A stretch of DNA of 64,000 bases, taken from Anaerotruncus massiliensis (ex Togo et al. 2026). Lineage in GTDB: Bacteria > Bacillota > Clostridia > Oscillospirales > Ruminococcaceae. The translations under genes were made by a program, and so were the position numbers. Positions 13,385 through 46,342 of the stretch are shown here, one piece after another (position 1 is the first letter of the stretch; the number at the start of each line of letters is the position of its first letter). The stretch lies in the NCBI RefSeq assembly GCF_900199635.1, contig NZ_LT962687.1:729501-793500 (forward strand), read 5' to 3'. Below the pieces are notes generated by a model, which saw only the letters and a list, made by a program, of their open reading frames with translations, was not told the origin of the DNA and searched no databases.

Positions 13385-13600
13385 TTTGACGGCCGTGCCC
13401 ATCTCCGCACAGGATATCATCAAACGTTTTGCCGGCTTTTTCAAAAGCCGCGGGTGAGGCGAAAGCCGGAGGCTTTCGCCGGGGGCGGAGCCCTTGACCC
13501 GGGCCCGCAGGCCCTGCCGTAAGCGATTTTTCTTTGGTTCTTTCTTTTTCAGGAAAAAAGAAAGAATGGGTGTAACACCGCCAAACCATGATTTCAAAGA
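13385..13600 (+). repeat. Hairpin-rich intergenic segment before yebC
   Basis: The gap contains several short GC stem-loops, among them GGCGAAAGCC-GGAG-GCTTTCGCC, and a T-rich hairpin near 13535-13565 of the TTCTTT...AAAGAA type, similar to one at 51900-51945. A 20-codon frame (MPISAQDIIKRFAGFFKSRG, from GTG 13395) lacks an SD and I do not call it. The T-rich hairpins probably end the mltG operon. Confidence 0.55.
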
Positions 13601-13613
13601 GAGGTTGAAGGAT

Positions 13614-14360
13614 ATGTCCGGACATTCCAAATGGGCAAACATCAAACGCAAAAAGGAAAAGACCGACGGCGCGCGCGCGAAAATCTTTACGAAGATCGGG
13701 CGCGAGATCACCGTTGCGGCGCGCGAGGGCGGAGCCGACCCGGCGAACAACTCCAAGCTGGCGACGCTGATTGCGAAGGCGAAGGCGAACAACGTCCCGA
13801 ACGACAACATCGAGCGCCTGCTCAAAAAGGCGGGGGACAGCAAGGAGGACTACGAGGAGATTACATACGAGGGCTACGGTCCTTCGGGTGTGGCGGTCAT
13901 CGTGGAAACCCTCACCGACAACCGCAACCGCACGGCGGGCGATCTGCGCCACTACTTCGACAAATGCGGCGGCAACCTCGGCCAGAACGGGAGCGTCTCC
14001 TTCCTGTTTGAAAAGAAGGGCGTCATCGTCATCGACAACGAGGAGGGCAAATACGACGAGGAAAAGGTCATGGACGACTGCTTCGAGTGCGGGGCGGCCG
14101 ACTATGACTACAGCTCCGACGACGTGATCGAGATCTACACCGAGCCCAACGACGTGGCGAAGGTGGCGGGCGCGCTCGAGCAGATGGGCTACACCTACGA
14201 TTCCGCCGAGGTCGAGTACATTCCGATGACCAAGGTGAAGATCGACGACGAGGAGCTCGCCCAGAAGATGGAGAAGCTGCTCGACATGTTCGACGACAAC
14301 GACGACGTGCAGAACGTCTACCACAATTGGGACCAGCCGGAGGAGCCCGACGAGGACTGA
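13614..14360 (+). CDS. YebC/PmpR family protein (TACO1-like)
   Basis: The 248-residue protein starts MSGHSKWANIKRKKEKTDGARAKIFTKIGREI, the invariant N-terminus of YebC proteins, followed by DNIERLLKKA, YEGYGPSGVAVIVE, LTDNRNRTAGDLRHYFDKCGGNLG and a C-terminal acidic tail. Family members are transcription factors and, more recently, translation factors that help ribosomes through polyproline stalls. The chosen ATG has GAGAGG upstream and gives the family's standard N-terminus; the frame extending upstream runs through a hairpin. A terminator follows, so it is a single-gene transcript. Confidence 0.95.
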   Translation: MSGHSKWANIKRKKEKTDGARAKIFTKIGREITVAAREGGADPANNSKLATLIAKAKANNVPNDNIERLLKKAGDSKEDYEEITYEGYGPSGVAVIVETLTDNRNRTAGDLRHYFDKCGGNLGQNGSVSFLFEKKGVIVIDNEEGKYDEEKVMDDCFECGAADYDYSSDDVIEIYTEPNDVAKVAGALEQMGYTYDSAEVEYIPMTKVKIDDEELAQKMEKLLDMFDDNDDVQNVYHNWDQPEEPDED

Positions 14361-14387
14361 CCGGCCAGGAGCGGAAATAATGAAACA

Positions 14388-14420
14388 GCGGGCGCGGCAT
14401 CTGCCGCGCCCGCTTTTTTT
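14388..14420 (+). terminator. Intrinsic terminator after yebC
   Basis: A 12-bp GC stem (GCGGGCGCGGCA / TGCCGCGCCCGC) with a 2-base loop is followed by seven T residues. Confidence 0.92.
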
Positions 14421-14486
14421 GCGCGCCGGGAAGGAAAATTCAGGAGGCGGGAAAATCCCGGAATCCCCGGGCCTTTCCCGTGATTC

Positions 14487-14503
14487 GGCCAGATGCTGGG
14501 AAC
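14487..14503 (+). repeat. Left copy of a short direct repeat flanking the recombinase module
   Basis: GGCCAGATGCTGGGAAC matches GGCCAAATGCTGGAAAC at 16558-16574 at 15 of 17 positions. The pair brackets the recombinase, its sites and the linked unknown gene, and could be remnants of an integration target. Confidence 0.3.
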
Positions 14504-14582
14504 CGCCTTCCAGACTCTGGTTCGCGGCGCGAAATTAGGTGGAAAGCAACAAAAACGCGCCAAAAATTTCAGTGGAAATTAT

Positions 14583-14634
14583 AGTTCCGGAACTTCCGTG
14601 CGTATGCCGAACTCCCGGAAAAAATGGGTATACT
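14583..14634 (+). promoter_or_regulatory. Palindrome and -10 element upstream of the recombinase
   Basis: AGTTCCGGAACT (14583-14594) is a perfect 12-bp palindrome, and TATACT (14629-14634) is a good -10 about 29 bases before the recombinase ATG. No clear -35 is 17 bases upstream (GCCGAA), so the promoter is weak or activated. Confidence 0.4.
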
Positions 14635-14662
14635 TATGGCAATCACGGAAGGAGAGAAGCAT

Positions 14663-15514
14663 ATGAGCAGTGTCAAACAACTGGAACAGGCGGAGGTCGA
14701 CGGCTTCCTGAGGAACCTCTATCTCGAGGAGCGCAGCGAAAACACCGTCAGCAAATACCGCCGGGATATCGCGCGCTTCGGCCGGTTCCTGGCGGAGGGC
14801 CGGGCGCTGGACAGGGAGGCGGTGGTGGCCTACAAGCGCTATCTGGTCGGCGAGGGCTATAAGGCGTCCTCCGTCAATTCCATGCTGGCGGCCGTCAACG
14901 CCCTGTTGTCCTACCTGGGCCTTCCCGACTGCCGGGTGCGGCTGTTAAAAATCCAGCGTCAGGCGTTCCGGGACCGGTCTCGCGAATTGCAGAAGGCGGA
15001 CTACCTGCGCCTGCTTGAGACCGCGCGCAGCCGGAAAAAGCCGCGCGCCGAGGCGCTGCTGCAAACCCTGTGCGGCGTCGGGATCCGCGTCAGCGAGCTG
15101 CCCTTCATCACGAAGGAGGCGGTGCTGGAGGGCCGGGCGGCCATCCGCTGCAAGGGGAAATGCCGGGTCGTACCCCTGCCCGACCGCCTCCGGCGCATCC
15201 TCCTGCGCTACTGCGGGGAGCGGGGGATCACGTCGGGCCCGGTCTTCGTCACCCGCAGCGGCAGGCCCATGCACCGGTCGACCGTCTGGCGCACGGTGAA
15301 AAGCCTCAGCGCGGACGCGAAGGTGCAGCCGCGAAAGGTCTATCCCCACAACCTGCGCCACCTGTTCGCCTGCACCTATTACCGGCAGAGCCGGGACATC
15401 GCCGGACTGGCGGCCCTTTTGGGCCACGCCAGCACCGAAACCACCCGGATCTACACGGCGACGAACGAGACGGAGTACGCCGGCCTCATCAACCGGCTGG
15501 GCCTTGTGCCCTGA
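14663..15514 (+). CDS. Tyrosine recombinase / site-specific integrase (XerD-like)
   Basis: The 283-residue protein has a SAM-like N-terminal domain (EQAEVDGFLRNLYLEERSENTVSKYRRDIARF) and a catalytic domain with the expected residues: Arg142 in GVGIRVSEL, a Lys in the RCKGKCRVVPLP turn, His229 and Arg232 in PHNLRHLFA, His255 in LLGHAST and the Tyr264 nucleophile in RIYT. It is complete and looks active. ATG 14663 follows AAGGAGA by 7 bases. It sits immediately upstream of two dif-like sites in inverted orientation, which makes a local invertase the best guess; an integrase left by a mobile element is the alternative. It is not the chromosomal XerC/XerD by context. Confidence 0.92.
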   Translation: MSSVKQLEQAEVDGFLRNLYLEERSENTVSKYRRDIARFGRFLAEGRALDREAVVAYKRYLVGEGYKASSVNSMLAAVNALLSYLGLPDCRVRLLKIQRQAFRDRSRELQKADYLRLLETARSRKKPRAEALLQTLCGVGIRVSELPFITKEAVLEGRAAIRCKGKCRVVPLPDRLRRILLRYCGERGITSGPVFVTRSGRPMHRSTVWRTVKSLSADAKVQPRKVYPHNLRHLFACTYYRQSRDIAGLAALLGHASTETTRIYTATNETEYAGLINRLGLVP

Positions 15515-15537
15515 GAAAAGGCCCGGAAAACAAAAAA

Positions 15538-15561
15538 GCAACATAATGCGTATTATGTTGC
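15538..15561. repeat. dif-like recombination site 1 (left end of a putative invertible segment)
   Basis: The 24-base site has 10-bp palindromic arms around the asymmetric core GCGT. Written as half-sites it is AACATAA-TGCGTA-TTATGTT, very close to the XerD half-site and 6-bp spacer layout of bacterial dif. It lies 23 bases after the recombinase stop. Its A-rich left flank and T-rich right flank could also make it a weak terminator. Confidence 0.7.
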
Positions 15562-15808
15562 AGTTTTAAAACCTCGCTCTATTTTAGGCTACATAATCTT
15601 CCCTTATTATGCAACAAAATGGCAATCTTCGCAATAGGCGGCCCGGATTTTTCGCCGTTTGGGGCCGCCCGGGAGTATGCCGAAAATGCGCGTCAACGGT
15701 CCCTCGCCGCTGATGTGCTTTCGTGCAGGCCAAATACCCCTGACAGGCGCGCGTCCAAAGCCGGCGGAGCTGTTTTATGCCTGATATGACCATTTTTCGG
15801 CCCGGTTT
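15562..15808. other. Putative invertible 247-bp segment, non-coding, with a leftward promoter
   Basis: No gene is visible. The left part is AT-rich, unlike its surroundings. On the minus strand TTGCGA (15629-15634) and CATAAT (15606-15611) are separated by 17 bases and point away from the 15888 gene; inversion would turn this promoter towards that gene. A third, imperfect site-like dyad lies at 15588-15615 (GCTACATAAT and ATTATGCAAC, 8-base spacer). Confidence 0.5.
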
Positions 15809-15843
15809 GCAACATAATACGCATTATGTTGCAAACCGGGCCG
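15798..15843. repeat. dif-like recombination site 2, inside a 46-bp perfect palindrome
   Basis: The central 24 bases (15809-15832) have the same 10-bp arms as site 1 but the core ACGC, the reverse complement of site 1's GCGT: AACATAA-TACGCA-TTATGTT. The arms extend to 21 bp each (CGGCCCGGTTT outward), giving a perfect 46-bp palindrome apart from the core. Sites 1 and 2 are therefore exact inverted copies. Confidence 0.75.
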
Positions 15844-15887
15844 TATTCCGGGGCCGGAGCTTTTCTTTTGCGAAAGGATGGAAGGTC

Positions 15888-16469
15888 ATGAAAGTCAACT
15901 ACGGCCAATTGGGGACCGAAGCGGAGATCGTCCTGATCCGCCTGAGCCGGGAGGCGGAGGGACAGCCCGCCGGGACGTTGAGCAACGTCTACCTCCCGGA
16001 GCCGGTGAGCTTCTACGGGCTCGGGGATCTCTTTTTGGAACTGGACGCGATCTACCGTTACCTCCGGTTTCCATGCGCGGACAGGGATGTCCGCTATTTC
16101 AGCAGCCGCCGCCAGCTCCAGGCGAACCGCCAGCCGGTTCCGCTGGACACGCTCCGGTATGAGCGGCGCCGGGAGCTGGAAACCACCATGCAGGAGCCGT
16201 ACGATTTCGTCGTGCAGGTGATCTACCGGCAGAACGACAGCTGGCAGGGCTTTCTGACGTGGGTGGGCAGGAACGTGCGCGTCTCCTTCACCAGCGCGCT
16301 GCAATTGCTGCGGCTTCTCGCGGAGGCGATGGGGTGCGACGGGAAGGTGCAGGTCTTGGACGCCCAGCGGGACGCGGCGCTGGTCGCCGACTGGAGGCTG
16401 CAGCAGAATGCGGAGCGCGAGCGGCGCGCCCCGGAACCGGCGCCGTGGGGGGAGGACGCGGACGATTGA
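15888..16469 (+). CDS. Protein of unknown function linked to the recombinase (193 aa)
   Basis: The ATG at 15888 follows AAAGGATGGAAGG. The protein is soluble with no signal peptide. It has two recognisable blocks: an N-terminal half (NVYLPEPVSFYGLGDLFLELDAIYRYLRFP) and a C-terminal half (VQVIYRQNDSWQGFLTWVGRNVRVSFTSALQLLRLL), then a charged tail. I do not recognise a named family; the second block looks like a compact beta-alpha domain. It lies 45 bases after the second dif-like site, the expected place for a target of a phase-variable promoter. Codon use matches the chromosome, so it is not recently acquired by that measure. Confidence 0.75.
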   Translation: MKVNYGQLGTEAEIVLIRLSREAEGQPAGTLSNVYLPEPVSFYGLGDLFLELDAIYRYLRFPCADRDVRYFSSRRQLQANRQPVPLDTLRYERRRELETTMQEPYDFVVQVIYRQNDSWQGFLTWVGRNVRVSFTSALQLLRLLAEAMGCDGKVQVLDAQRDAALVADWRLQQNAERERRAPEPAPWGEDADD

Positions 16470-16557
16470 GCCGTCCGGGCACTTCTTTTCCATCGCGCGC
16501 GCGAAGGTGCTTCCGGCCCCTGTTTCCGCTGGAAAGTTTCGACAGTTCCCGCGCGGC

Positions 16558-16574
16558 GGCCAAATGCTGGAAAC
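16558..16574 (+). repeat. Right copy of the short direct repeat flanking the recombinase module
   Basis: GGCCAAATGCTGGAAAC matches the copy at 14487-14503 at 15 of 17 positions, in the same orientation. Confidence 0.3.
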
Positions 16575-16621
16575 CCGCTCCCGAATGGGGCTTTGAGGGG
16601 ATAAAACAGGCTAAATTCGAC

Positions 16622-16655
16622 AAAAAGACGCCGAAAATTTCGGCGTCTTTTTTTT
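16622..16655 (+). terminator. Intrinsic terminator between the module and the dcw cluster
   Basis: A stem GACGCCGAAA / TTTCGGCGTC flanked by A and T tracts ends in eight T residues. It isolates mraZ from upstream transcription. Confidence 0.92.
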
Positions 16656-16673
16656 GCTGGAAAAGAAAAGCAC

Positions 16674-16702
16674 TTGCATTTTTTATCTGCGGCAAGTATA
16701 AT
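16674..16702 (+). promoter_or_regulatory. mraZ (dcw cluster) promoter
   Basis: TTGCAT and a perfect TATAAT are 17 bases apart, 83 bases before the mraZ ATG. The MraZ operator begins 8 bases after the -10. Confidence 0.85.
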
Positions 16703-16710
16703 AAAGAGGT

Positions 16711-16740
16711 AAAAGTGGTGAAAAGTGGTTAAAAGTGGAG
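16711..16740 (+). promoter_or_regulatory. MraZ operator: three 10-bp direct repeats
   Basis: Three consecutive decamers read AAAAGTGGTG, AAAAGTGGTT and AAAAGTGGAG. GTGG boxes at 10-bp spacing downstream of the mraZ promoter are the known binding pattern of MraZ, so the cluster is probably autoregulated. Confidence 0.85.
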
Positions 16741-16785
16741 GAATCGCCACCCAAGTGGCGGACAAGCCCGGAGGGAGGTGATAAA

Positions 16786-17205
16786 ATGCTCACAGGACAG
16801 TACACCCACAGCATCGACGCGAAAGGCCGGGTGAACTTCCCCGCGAAGCTGCGCGAGGAGCTGGGCGAGCGTTTTATCATCACGCGCGGGCTCGACAACT
16901 GCCTCTTCGTCTACTCGGTGGACGAGTGGGACCAGCTCGCGGCAAAGCTGCACGAGCTGCCCATCAGCAAATCCGCCCCCCTCAACCGGTTCTTCTTCGC
17001 GGGAGCCGCCGAGGCGGAGCCGGACAAGCAGGGCAGGGTGCTCCTGCCGGCGCACCTGCGGGAATACGCGGGGCTCGACCGGGACGTCACGATCGCGGGC
17101 GTCTCCAACCGCGCCGAGATCTGGGACAGCGAGCGCTGGGAGAAGCAGAACGAGCAGCTTACGGCCCAGTCCATCGCGACCGCGATGGACGAGCTGGGGT
17201 TCTAG
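16786..17205 (+). CDS. mraZ: MraZ, transcriptional regulator of the dcw cluster
   Basis: The 139-residue protein begins MLTGQYTHSIDAKGRVNFPAKLREELG and has a second AbrB/SpoVT-like half PDKQGRVLLPAHLREYAGLDRDVTIAGV, the two DxKGR/DxQGR repeats that define MraZ. MraZ forms a ring and binds GTGG direct repeats at its own promoter to control division and wall genes. The ATG at 16786 has GGGAGGTG 6 bases upstream. rsmH follows after 3 bases. Length and motifs are standard. Confidence 0.97.
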   Translation: MLTGQYTHSIDAKGRVNFPAKLREELGERFIITRGLDNCLFVYSVDEWDQLAAKLHELPISKSAPLNRFFFAGAAEAEPDKQGRVLLPAHLREYAGLDRDVTIAGVSNRAEIWDSERWEKQNEQLTAQSIATAMDELGF

Positions 17206-17208
17206 GCG

Positions 17209-18138
17209 ATGGCGGAATTTTCACACCGCCCCGTCCTGCTGGACGAGTGCATCGAGGGCCTGGCCATCCGCCCGGACGGCATCTATGTCGACGGGACGGC
17301 GGGCGGCGCGGGGCACTCCTCCGAAATCGCAAAGCGCCTGACCACCGGACGGCTGGTCGCGCTCGACAAGGACCCCGACGCGGTGAAGGCCGCCTCCGAA
17401 CGGCTCGCGCCCTATCCCTGCGCCGTCGTCGTGCAGAGCGATTTTTCCCAGATGAACGGCGTGCTCGACCGGCTGGGGATCGACGGGGTGGACGGCATCC
17501 TGCTCGACCTGGGGGTCTCCTCCCACCAGCTCGACACCCCCGAGCGGGGCTTTTCCTACATGCACGACGCGCCGCTCGACATGCGCATGTCCCAGTCGGG
17601 GCTGAGCGCCTACGACGTGATCAACGGCTATGACTTCAAGGAACTGTGCCGGGTGTTCCGCGATTACGGCGAGGAGAAATTCGCGCCGATGATCGCTAAA
17701 CATATTTTGCATACCAGAACGCAGCGCCCCATTGCCACTACCGGAGAACTGGCAACACTGATTAGCGCGTCGATCCCCGCAAGGGCGAGACGCGAGGGCG
17801 GGCATCCTGCAAAGCGCGTCTTTCAAGCGGTCCGAATTGAGGTAAACGGGGAACTCTCCAGCCTGTCTGTTTTTCTCGGCGAAACGTTTGAAAGACTCCG
17901 CTCCGGCGGGCGCATGGCAATCATCACCTTCCATTCGTTGGAAGACCGCATGGTCAAACAGCGGTATGCGGCGCTTTGCAGGGGCTGCACCTGTCCGCCG
18001 GACTTTCCGGTGTGCGTGTGCGGCAACCGGCCCAAAGGGAAACTCGTGAACAAAAAACCCATCGAGGCGGGGGAAACGGAGCTCGCGGCCAACAGCCGCA
18101 GCAAGAGCGCCAAGCTGCGCATCATTGAGAAACTATAG
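17209..18138 (+). CDS. rsmH: 16S rRNA (cytosine-1402-N4)-methyltransferase RsmH (MraW)
   Basis: The 309-residue protein starts FSHRPVLLDECIEGL and has the SAM-binding YVDGTAGGAGHSSEIAKRL, LLDLGVSSHQLDTPERGFSYMHDAPLDMRMS and the C-terminal TFHSLEDRMVKQRY. RsmH methylates N4 of C1402 in the ribosomal P site. It is the second dcw gene, as usual. From about 17695 to 17945 the base composition drops and codons rare elsewhere in the window appear (AGA, CGA, CAA, GTA, ATT), while the protein remains normal; this looks like a mosaic patch. Upstream and downstream parts are GC-rich. Confidence 0.96.
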   Translation: MAEFSHRPVLLDECIEGLAIRPDGIYVDGTAGGAGHSSEIAKRLTTGRLVALDKDPDAVKAASERLAPYPCAVVVQSDFSQMNGVLDRLGIDGVDGILLDLGVSSHQLDTPERGFSYMHDAPLDMRMSQSGLSAYDVINGYDFKELCRVFRDYGEEKFAPMIAKHILHTRTQRPIATTGELATLISASIPARARREGGHPAKRVFQAVRIEVNGELSSLSVFLGETFERLRSGGRMAIITFHSLEDRMVKQRYAALCRGCTCPPDFPVCVCGNRPKGKLVNKKPIEAGETELAANSRSKSAKLRIIEKL

Positions 18139-44907: not shown

Positions 44908-45208
44908 TTGGGTTTGCCGCGCTGCGACGGCCCGCAGGCCTAGTGCCGGAGGCGTGTCCCGCCGACGGCCGCCCGGCGGGGCTATCGCGGGAATTGCCGC
45001 TTTCCAAGCGGCAAGAATTACTTGCGCGTTCCGCCGCGCACCACGGGTTCCTTTTCGGACGGACGAAAAGGAACCAAAAGTCCGCCTAAGGGACTTCCGC
45101 CAGTCCCTTAGGAATCCCCGGGAGTACCTTGCCATAACCCGCAGACTACCGCCGCTCCCCACAGGTACACCAGCTGAGGGCTCAATTCAGGTTGCGGGCG
45201 CTCCCAAT
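44908..45208. repeat. Left long inverted repeat flanking the two-gene insert
   Basis: This 301-base sequence reappears in reverse complement at 45922-46342, nearly identical except for an internal block of about 120-150 bases present only on the right. It contains the hairpin GGTTCCTTTTCGG / CGAAAAGGAACC and several GC stem-loops, and no gene. Confidence 0.85.
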
Positions 45209-45921: not shown

Positions 45922-46342
45922 ATTGTTGGGAGCATCCGCAACCTGAATTGAGCCCTCAGCTAGTGCACCTGCGGGGAGCGGCGGCAGTTCGCGGGTTATG
46001 GAAAGGTACTCCCGGAGATACCGCTTAGAGTTCCGGCCCGCAGGGCCGGGTCCGCGTAGCGGACTCAAGCCGGGGTCGCGGGGCGGAGCGCCCGCGAGCG
46101 GCCGTCGCGCGTAGCGCGCTCCGGGCGCAGCCCGGGCAGGCCGCCCAAGGTGGAGGGTTCTTAGGCGGACTTTTGGTTCCTTTTCGTCCGTCCGAAAAGG
46201 AACCCGTGGCGCGCGGCGGAACGCGCTCGTGATTCTTGCCGCTTGGAAAGCGGCAATTCCCGTCTACGCCCCGCCGGGCGGCCGTCGGCGGGACACGCCT
46301 CCGGCACTAGGCCTGCGGGCCGTCGCAGCGCGGCAAACCCAA
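45922..46342. repeat. Right long inverted repeat flanking the two-gene insert
   Basis: Reverse complement of 44908-45208 with an extra internal block (about 46020-46165) that matches 39700-39791. Hairpins include GGTTCCTTTTCGTCC / GGACGAAAAGGAACC and GCCGCTTGGAAAGCGGC. No gene is present from 45897 to 46465. Confidence 0.85.

Follow-up and report, generated by a model that had tools for sequence, protein, structure and literature searches.

A probable invertible promoter switch beside a tyrosine recombinase gene of Anaerotruncus massiliensis, and sequence rules shared by its relatives

The recombinase locus between yebC and mraZ

The window, i.e. the whole 64,000-nt stretch of Anaerotruncus massiliensis DNA that was analyzed, belongs to a genome of 3.15 Mb in 7 contigs. 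Between two genes that read as yebC (ending at 14360) and mraZ (16786) lie a tyrosine recombinase gene, two short inverted sites and a gene for a protein of 193 aa. The recombinase gene (14663-15514, plus strand) was a complete ORF of 283 aa, as the preliminary description had it, and its product, the presumed invertase, matched the Pfam families Phage_integrase (PF00589, E 2.2e-23) and Phage_int_SAM_1 (PF02899, E 1.3e-12). The residues R142, K164, H229, R232, H255 and Y264, which we take to be the catalytic residues of the family, were invariant in a 38-sequence alignment. The closest models were XerA/XerD-like and matched below the cut-off (120.3 bits vs 329.6), and the closest solved structures were XerC-like, XerD and XerA proteins.

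The intact recombinase gene ends 23 nt before site 1 (15538-15562, plus strand; GCAACATAATGCGTATTATGTTGCA). Site 2 (15808-15832, minus strand) is an exact inverted copy of it over 25 nt (100% identity), with 245 nt between the two. Each site is itself palindromic around an asymmetric core: the 18-mer ACATAAT-GCGT-ATTATGT occupies 15541-15558 in site 1, with the core GCGT at 15548-15551, and 15812-15829 in site 2, where the core at 15819-15822 reads ACGC. The earlier observation of two inverted sites directly behind the recombinase gene, with cores that are each other's reverse complement, was thus confirmed. Across the 3.15-Mb genome, only sites 1 and 2 matched AACATAATnnnnATTATGTT exactly, and the longest inverted pair in 2000 dinucleotide shuffles of 15515-15887 measured 15 nt, compared with the 25 nt of the real pair. 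A third site-like copy at 15592-15611 was rejected and read as a -10 element, CATAAT, plus a chance ATTATG. True extra tandem copies of the site were present at one end of four related loci (L008, L027, L061 and L020), where they would permit alternative inversions or small deletions.

The putative invertible segment (15563-15807, 245 nt) had been called AT-rich, which holds relative to the locus (53% vs 61% GC) but not in absolute terms. It contains a predicted promoter on the minus strand, with a -35 element TTGCGA at 15629-15634, a spacer of 17 and a -10 element CATAAT at 15606-15611. This promoter currently points toward the recombinase, a state designated OFF, which is the one orientation seen in the single assembly of the sequenced isolate. 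Downstream of site 2 lies the candidate target gene (15888-16469, plus strand), which encodes a 193-aa member of an uncharacterized family and is preceded by an RBS-like GGAAGG recognized by eye. A search of 13500-17300 against Rfam returned nothing at the gathering threshold.

Ten genus-mates were compared at this spot. Blocks homologous to yebC and mraZ were 302 nt apart in G004 and 210 nt apart in G003, the corresponding gap in the window being 14361-16657. G010 had another stretch there, with 1.3 kb between the two genes; in G005 the genes were more than 1 Mb apart, in G001, G002, G006, G008 and G009 they were on separate contigs, and in G007 neither gene was found. The recombinase, switch and target therefore represent a gain at, or a loss from, the yebC-mraZ spot.

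Site pairs and matched cores in related loci

A scan of the genome contigs with the single recombinase protein found no relative, while an alignment-based scan did; the recombinase was matched in 38 of 100 related genomes, its own included. One matched locus, L253 of the order-mate G242, proved identical to L133 of Pseudoflavonifractor sp. MSJ-37, a strain listed under Oscillospiraceae, which places the host in the same clostridial order. The discovery set comprised 122 unique loci, 42 of them from related genomes (the window's included) and 80 from named relatives, the latter being 80 of the 575 loci matched in the alignment-based scan. For the held-out set 100 further loci, picked from a longer list, were fetched after the predictions had been fixed, and 92 were kept after dropping 8 that had already been seen. 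Site pairs were picked by their arms only, and the cores were ignored.

An inverted pair resembling ACATAAT-nnnn-ATTATGT was present 3' of the recombinase in 82 of 122 discovery and 68 of 92 held-out loci. Where 700 bp or more of 3' sequence was available, it was found in 79/97 and 67/77 loci, respectively, which leaves 18/97 and 10/77 that had enough sequence and no pair. The repeats matched over 18-29 nt in nearly all loci. Of the 80 named relatives, 58 had the pair no more than 900 bp 3' of the recombinase (one of them, L078, with a motif other than the usual one), as against 0 of 237 control regions 1.9-3.8 kb away; on the 5' side it was seen in one of the 80, 75 of which had 900 bp there.

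The 4-nt cores of the two sites were identical in all 82 discovery pairs, which had 55 distinct cores between them, whereas shuffles averaged 1.9 matches and never exceeded 9. In the held-out set 67 of 68 pairs matched, with 44 distinct cores and a shuffle maximum of 10. Over both sets the cores thus matched within 149 of 150 pairs while varying freely between loci, and none of the 82 + 68 pairs had a palindromic core. Read from outside to inside, the core had a pyrimidine at both ends in 90 of the 150 pairs, a purine at both ends in 22 and one of each in 38. Cores that are matched and yet free to vary are accounted for by strand-exchange recombination; an operator or a terminator gives no such account.

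Flipped segments and contig ends

Recombinases were at least 75% identical in 77 locus pairs. The segments could be aligned in 41 of these pairs, of which 27 shared one orientation and 14 were flipped; the 14 flips come from 14 loci and cannot be counted as independent events. In the pair L107 and L176, for example, the 273-bp stretch running from site to site aligned on the minus strand between flanks that aligned on the plus strand. Where promoters could be called confidently, their orientation agreed with that of the segment in 9/9 flipped and 15/17 same-orientation pairs.

Assembly graphs are expected to branch at invertible sites, and contigs do end there: of 38 truncated contigs (some of them duplicates), 11 ended 0-8 nt past a site. 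In the held-out set, 13 of 92 loci had a contig end within 300 bp on the 3' side of the recombinase match, compared with 5 on its 5' side. As far as sequence can tell, the core covariation, the flipped homologous segments and the contig ends argue for real inversion in this family. A further locus, L022/L067 on contig 19 of G022, was a perfect inverted duplication of 2664 nt with a 263-nt switch segment in its middle. This palindrome is what an assembly path via a flipped copy would produce, but a misassembly or a real duplication may also explain it.

Promoter position and helical phasing

The promoter-like TTGCGA-17-CATAAT noted in the preliminary description does lie on the minus strand facing the recombinase, but its raw score of 9.3 was unremarkable and was reached by 23% of 40 shuffles (one strand of each being scored). 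It is its distance from the site, which fits the rule of the family, and not the score, that makes this predicted promoter convincing. The best sigma-A-like promoter of a segment scored at least 9 in 70 of 82 discovery loci (22% in shuffles), facing the recombinase in 57 and the target in 13, and in 64 of 68 held-out loci, facing the recombinase in 42 and the target in 22. In 122 of these 134 promoters, 40-80 bp lay between the end of the -10 element and the outer edge of the site that the promoter faces. The distances clustered at means of 44.6, 55.1, 65.5 and 75.1 (n=14, 40, 59 and 8), with one in between. Of the 64 held-out promoters, 58 were at 43-78 bp from the faced site and 6 outside this range; 56 of the 58 fell in the windows fixed beforehand and 2 in the gaps, for a binomial P of 2e-7 that counts related loci as independent. 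ON calls outside the spacing windows (4/13 discovery, 5/22 held-out) may be miscalls.

In a tree of 82 recombinases, whose bootstrap was not fully settled, the 55 and 65 distance classes were scattered, with at least 11 and at least 10 changes forced by well-supported branches; repeated jumps by one helical turn are therefore implied. The distance between the sites, which ranged from 189 to 449 bp in the discovery set, was also periodic: a scan from 5 to 30 bp gave a best period of 10.40-10.45 bp with spacings near whole turns (R 0.57, n=150; 10.46 for the discovery and 10.32 for the held-out set alone). After thinning to recombinases less than 60% identical, R was 0.44 for site spacing (n=40, p 4e-4) and 0.62 for promoter distance (n=31, p 6.5e-6). 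The window follows both rules, as 65 nt separate the 3' end of its -10 element from the outer edge of the 18-mer in site 1, and its sites are 271 bp, or 25.8 helical turns, apart. This comparison with related switches suggests that the parts must share one face of the helix.

Proposed mechanism, terminators and alternative explanations

The order of recombinase, site 1, promoter segment, site 2 and usually a same-strand ORF was the same in the window as in its relatives, in keeping with the combination of parts first pointed out. Taken together, the locus is very probably a self-contained invertible-promoter switch of the kind that underlies phase variation. The observation on which this reading was originally based is right and its mechanism most likely so, given the core covariation, flipped segments and contig ends of the relatives. 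The recombinase would bind the palindromic arms of both sites, the 245-bp segment would be looped out, and strand exchange within the asymmetric core would lead to inversion. In the OFF state the promoter would fire toward the recombinase, with the transcript ending at a predicted leftward intrinsic terminator (15532-15561, minus strand) made up of the site 1 hairpin and an outer T-run. Inversion would place the same promoter 65 bp away from the outer edge of site 2; in this ON state, transcription would read through site 2, which is without a T-run, into the gene at 15888. We infer that the recombinase acts on both sites, that inversion takes place in the host species and that the gene at 15888 is switched by it.

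A leftward terminator between site 1 and the end of the recombinase gene was predicted in 45/82 discovery loci, the window included, and in 24/68 held-out loci, the latter being lower than the 'about half' predicted beforehand; site 1 was within the terminator stem in 33 of the 45 and 14 of the 24. Terminators past site 2 in the ON direction were found in 13/82 and 6/68 loci, and the same two stretches read the opposite way gave 3 and 9 of 82, and 3 and 1 of 68. The flanks outside each site therefore seem to determine the polarity.

It is unlikely that the switch was active formerly and is now locked in this strain. One orientation was seen and the promoter is weak, but the two sites match perfectly and the recombinase gene is complete, its key residues being invariant in 38 relatives.

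Slightly less probable still is a termination switch like that of Clostridioides difficile cwpV, in which the promoter would lie outside the segment (e.g. read-through from the recombinase gene) and a hairpin at site 2 would block the target. For cwpV itself the explanation given is a terminator formed in the OFF orientation only (PMC2784873), and the window does have a 21-bp stem around site 2 (15798-15843, plus strand, -38 kcal/mol) in the present orientation only, the flipped one leaving 11 bp. However, this stem is followed by a T-run on neither strand, site 2 stems of at least 12 bp occurred in few relatives (6/57 OFF and 2/13 ON loci), and most of them have a predicted phased promoter within the segment. 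The extended site 2 hairpin was rejected as a general OFF device, being rare among relatives. In the window the modeled stem may add an OFF block, and so supplement promoter inversion instead of replacing it.

That the palindromes are mere terminators or operators around the recombinase gene, with no recombination between them, is very improbable. Site 1 with its T-run is indeed predicted as a terminator and operators are typically palindromic, but neither needs matched letters in the loop, let alone in nearly every pair over so many different cores, and neither accounts for homologous segments found flipped in relatives.

The sites had been described as dif-like, and their layout fits that of dif, in which a 6-bp centre separates XerC- and XerD-type half-sites; a housekeeping role in Xer/dif chromosome resolution, to which the XerA/XerD model matches might also point, can nevertheless practically be dismissed, as the sites are two, inverted and 271 bp apart instead of one dif, a better XerD match is present elsewhere in the genome (C7:1488422, 199.2 vs 120.3 bits, likewise under the cut-off of 329.6, which only 4 of 14 control genomes passed), and genus-mates G003 and G004 have nothing of the switch at the same spot. 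A dif string searched for had no match in the genome within 3 mismatches.

Downstream genes and possible portability

We further considered that recombinase and switch form a portable cassette, re-used before unrelated genes and acting as one looped complex, with sites and promoter on one helix face because the recombinase tetramer touches RNA polymerase, so that inversion is coupled to transcription. This extended model is tentative and, in our estimate, rather doubtful. Such a cassette would be ∼1.2 kb long, starting ∼60-120 bp ahead of the recombinase match and ending shortly after site 2. Where recombinases shared at least 85% identity and the available sequence sufficed, downstream ORFs were homologous in 3 of 20 locus pairs and upstream ORFs in 0 of 3. 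When 20 close pairs were compared base by base, the last matching piece ended 0-28 nt beyond site 2 in 10 pairs (for some of which that piece amounted to little more than the site), homology stopped inside the segment in 5, and it continued well past site 2 in the remaining 5 (L246/L252, L209/L251, L226/L240, L100/L117 and L011/L203). On the 5' side homology often set in 60-120 nt ahead of the match to the recombinase; for L187/L189 and L176/L193 all 300 nt fetched were homologous, and only the downstream gene was seen to differ.

From the 82 loci 67 downstream ORFs were scanned, with short or doubtful ones omitted and L065 taken in place of L026. Among the 25 of 63 families listed were InlB/Flg_new repeats (5), signal peptidase S26 (4), LRR, prepilin N_methyl and helicase (3 each), and Wzz, SpaA, TetR and the integrase N-terminal domain (2 each). 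XerA-type models matched 3 of the 67 targets, and in L007, L133 and L137 the ORF behind the switch resembles another tyrosine recombinase, which may mean that these loci place one invertase under the control of another.

The candidate target at 15888 had no Pfam or NCBIfam match at E 0.001, with weak sub-cut-off matches at looser limits, and nothing convincing among PDB sequences (best E 0.029); an AlphaFold2 model from two sequences had a pLDDT of 40.6. Its family, which is without a Pfam model, is recognizable by the motif RQN-x-TWQG ... FRSxLEL (18 sequences aligned). It was present in 14 of 100 genomes, its own included, with six matches in its own genome counting the protein itself, and a member is also found behind a switch in Eubacterium sp. 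An11 (L140). Around other family members 23 of 51 neighboring ORFs, picked by eye, were scanned, yielding BTAD/Trans_reg_C regulators (6), VWA domains (2), a sortase domain (1) and a tip-pilin Ig domain (1); several members are directly followed by ORFs whose starts read like signal peptides. A role of the target in surface-protein control is a guess.

Comparison with known systems

The locus resembles E. coli fimS with FimB and FimE in having an invertible promoter with adjacent tyrosine recombinase(s). The fimS element has two dedicated recombinases and short 9-bp repeats, whereas the window has one Xer-like recombinase and palindromic sites. With XerC/XerD-dif it shares the site layout and the recombinase family, but function, copy number and site orientation differ.

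In C. difficile, RecV switches the surface protein cwpV and flagellar genes by similar means, i.e. a tyrosine recombinase, short inverted repeats and a segment of ∼200 bp (PMC2784873, PMC5903667). As described there, RecV works at several distant loci, and for cwpV the promoter is external to the segment; in the present family each recombinase adjoins a site pair of its own, and the promoter is predicted to lie between the two sites. In the Cdi7 element beside CDR20291_3416 a recombinase likewise adjoins the invertible segment, whose inversion is unaffected by RecV; by its description this segment holds a small ORF, unlike that of the window (PMC5903667).

Clostridial tyrosine-recombinase invertons are already in print (PMC11892184). 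In the hCom2 gut community, that source describes read-level flipping of clostridial invertons beside tyrosine recombinases, with a median of 3 invertons per genome in Clostridia-like strains of one defined gut community, and inverton group 139 with invertase group 35 is clostridial in 32 of 33 cases. Compared by text description only, the switch in the window is likely to belong to these groups: in them a tyrosine-type recombinase adjoins a short inverton (the two coordinates given leave 205 and 227 nt between the repeats) and, in a further likeness, the invertases are generally not under control of the inverton promoter (PMC11892184). The main text of that paper is without the words 'spacing' and 'helical' and has 'terminator' once, in a suggestion for future work.

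The open-licence PubMed Central literature searched yielded no description of the helical phasing, the terminator or the portable cassette. The single locus seems to be one more inverton of the gut-Clostridia kind, while the comparative rules seem new within that literature. To our knowledge rules for recognizing invertons from sequence are scarce. Those of this family comprise dif-like arms, a free but matched core, a position 3' of the recombinase, a promoter at ∼45/55/65/75 bp, a site spacing near whole turns and, in about half of the loci or fewer, a leftward terminator at site 1; they point to switches and to their likely ON/OFF state from a single assembly. The phasing of both sites and promoter also opens the way to direct tests of short-loop synapsis and of whether the recombinase might contact RNA polymerase.

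Further switches and repeats

Within-genome locus pairs shared a core in 52 of 110 cases, all 52 in G095, G108 and G153. G095 had 15 recombinase matches (L281-L293, L026 and L066), with the core TGAT in 10 of 13 readable cores and prepilin-like ORFs behind 8 of 10 newly fetched site-pair loci. This genome could hold an expanded repertoire of pilin switches, and its identical sites could also recombine between loci.

A second switch, L056, was present in the genome of the window itself (G000:C7:1284000-1302000). Its recombinase is 47% identical to that of the window and its core is CCGT; it was without a clear phased promoter (best call R236). This switch precedes a 755-aa protein with a signal-peptide-like start, and a paralogue of the window target lies ∼6 kb further on. 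The window also contains a second inverted repeat (45172-45197 and 45936-45961, 26 nt, 738 nt between), which by eye is part of a larger intergenic repeat with opposite-orientation copies around small ORFs.
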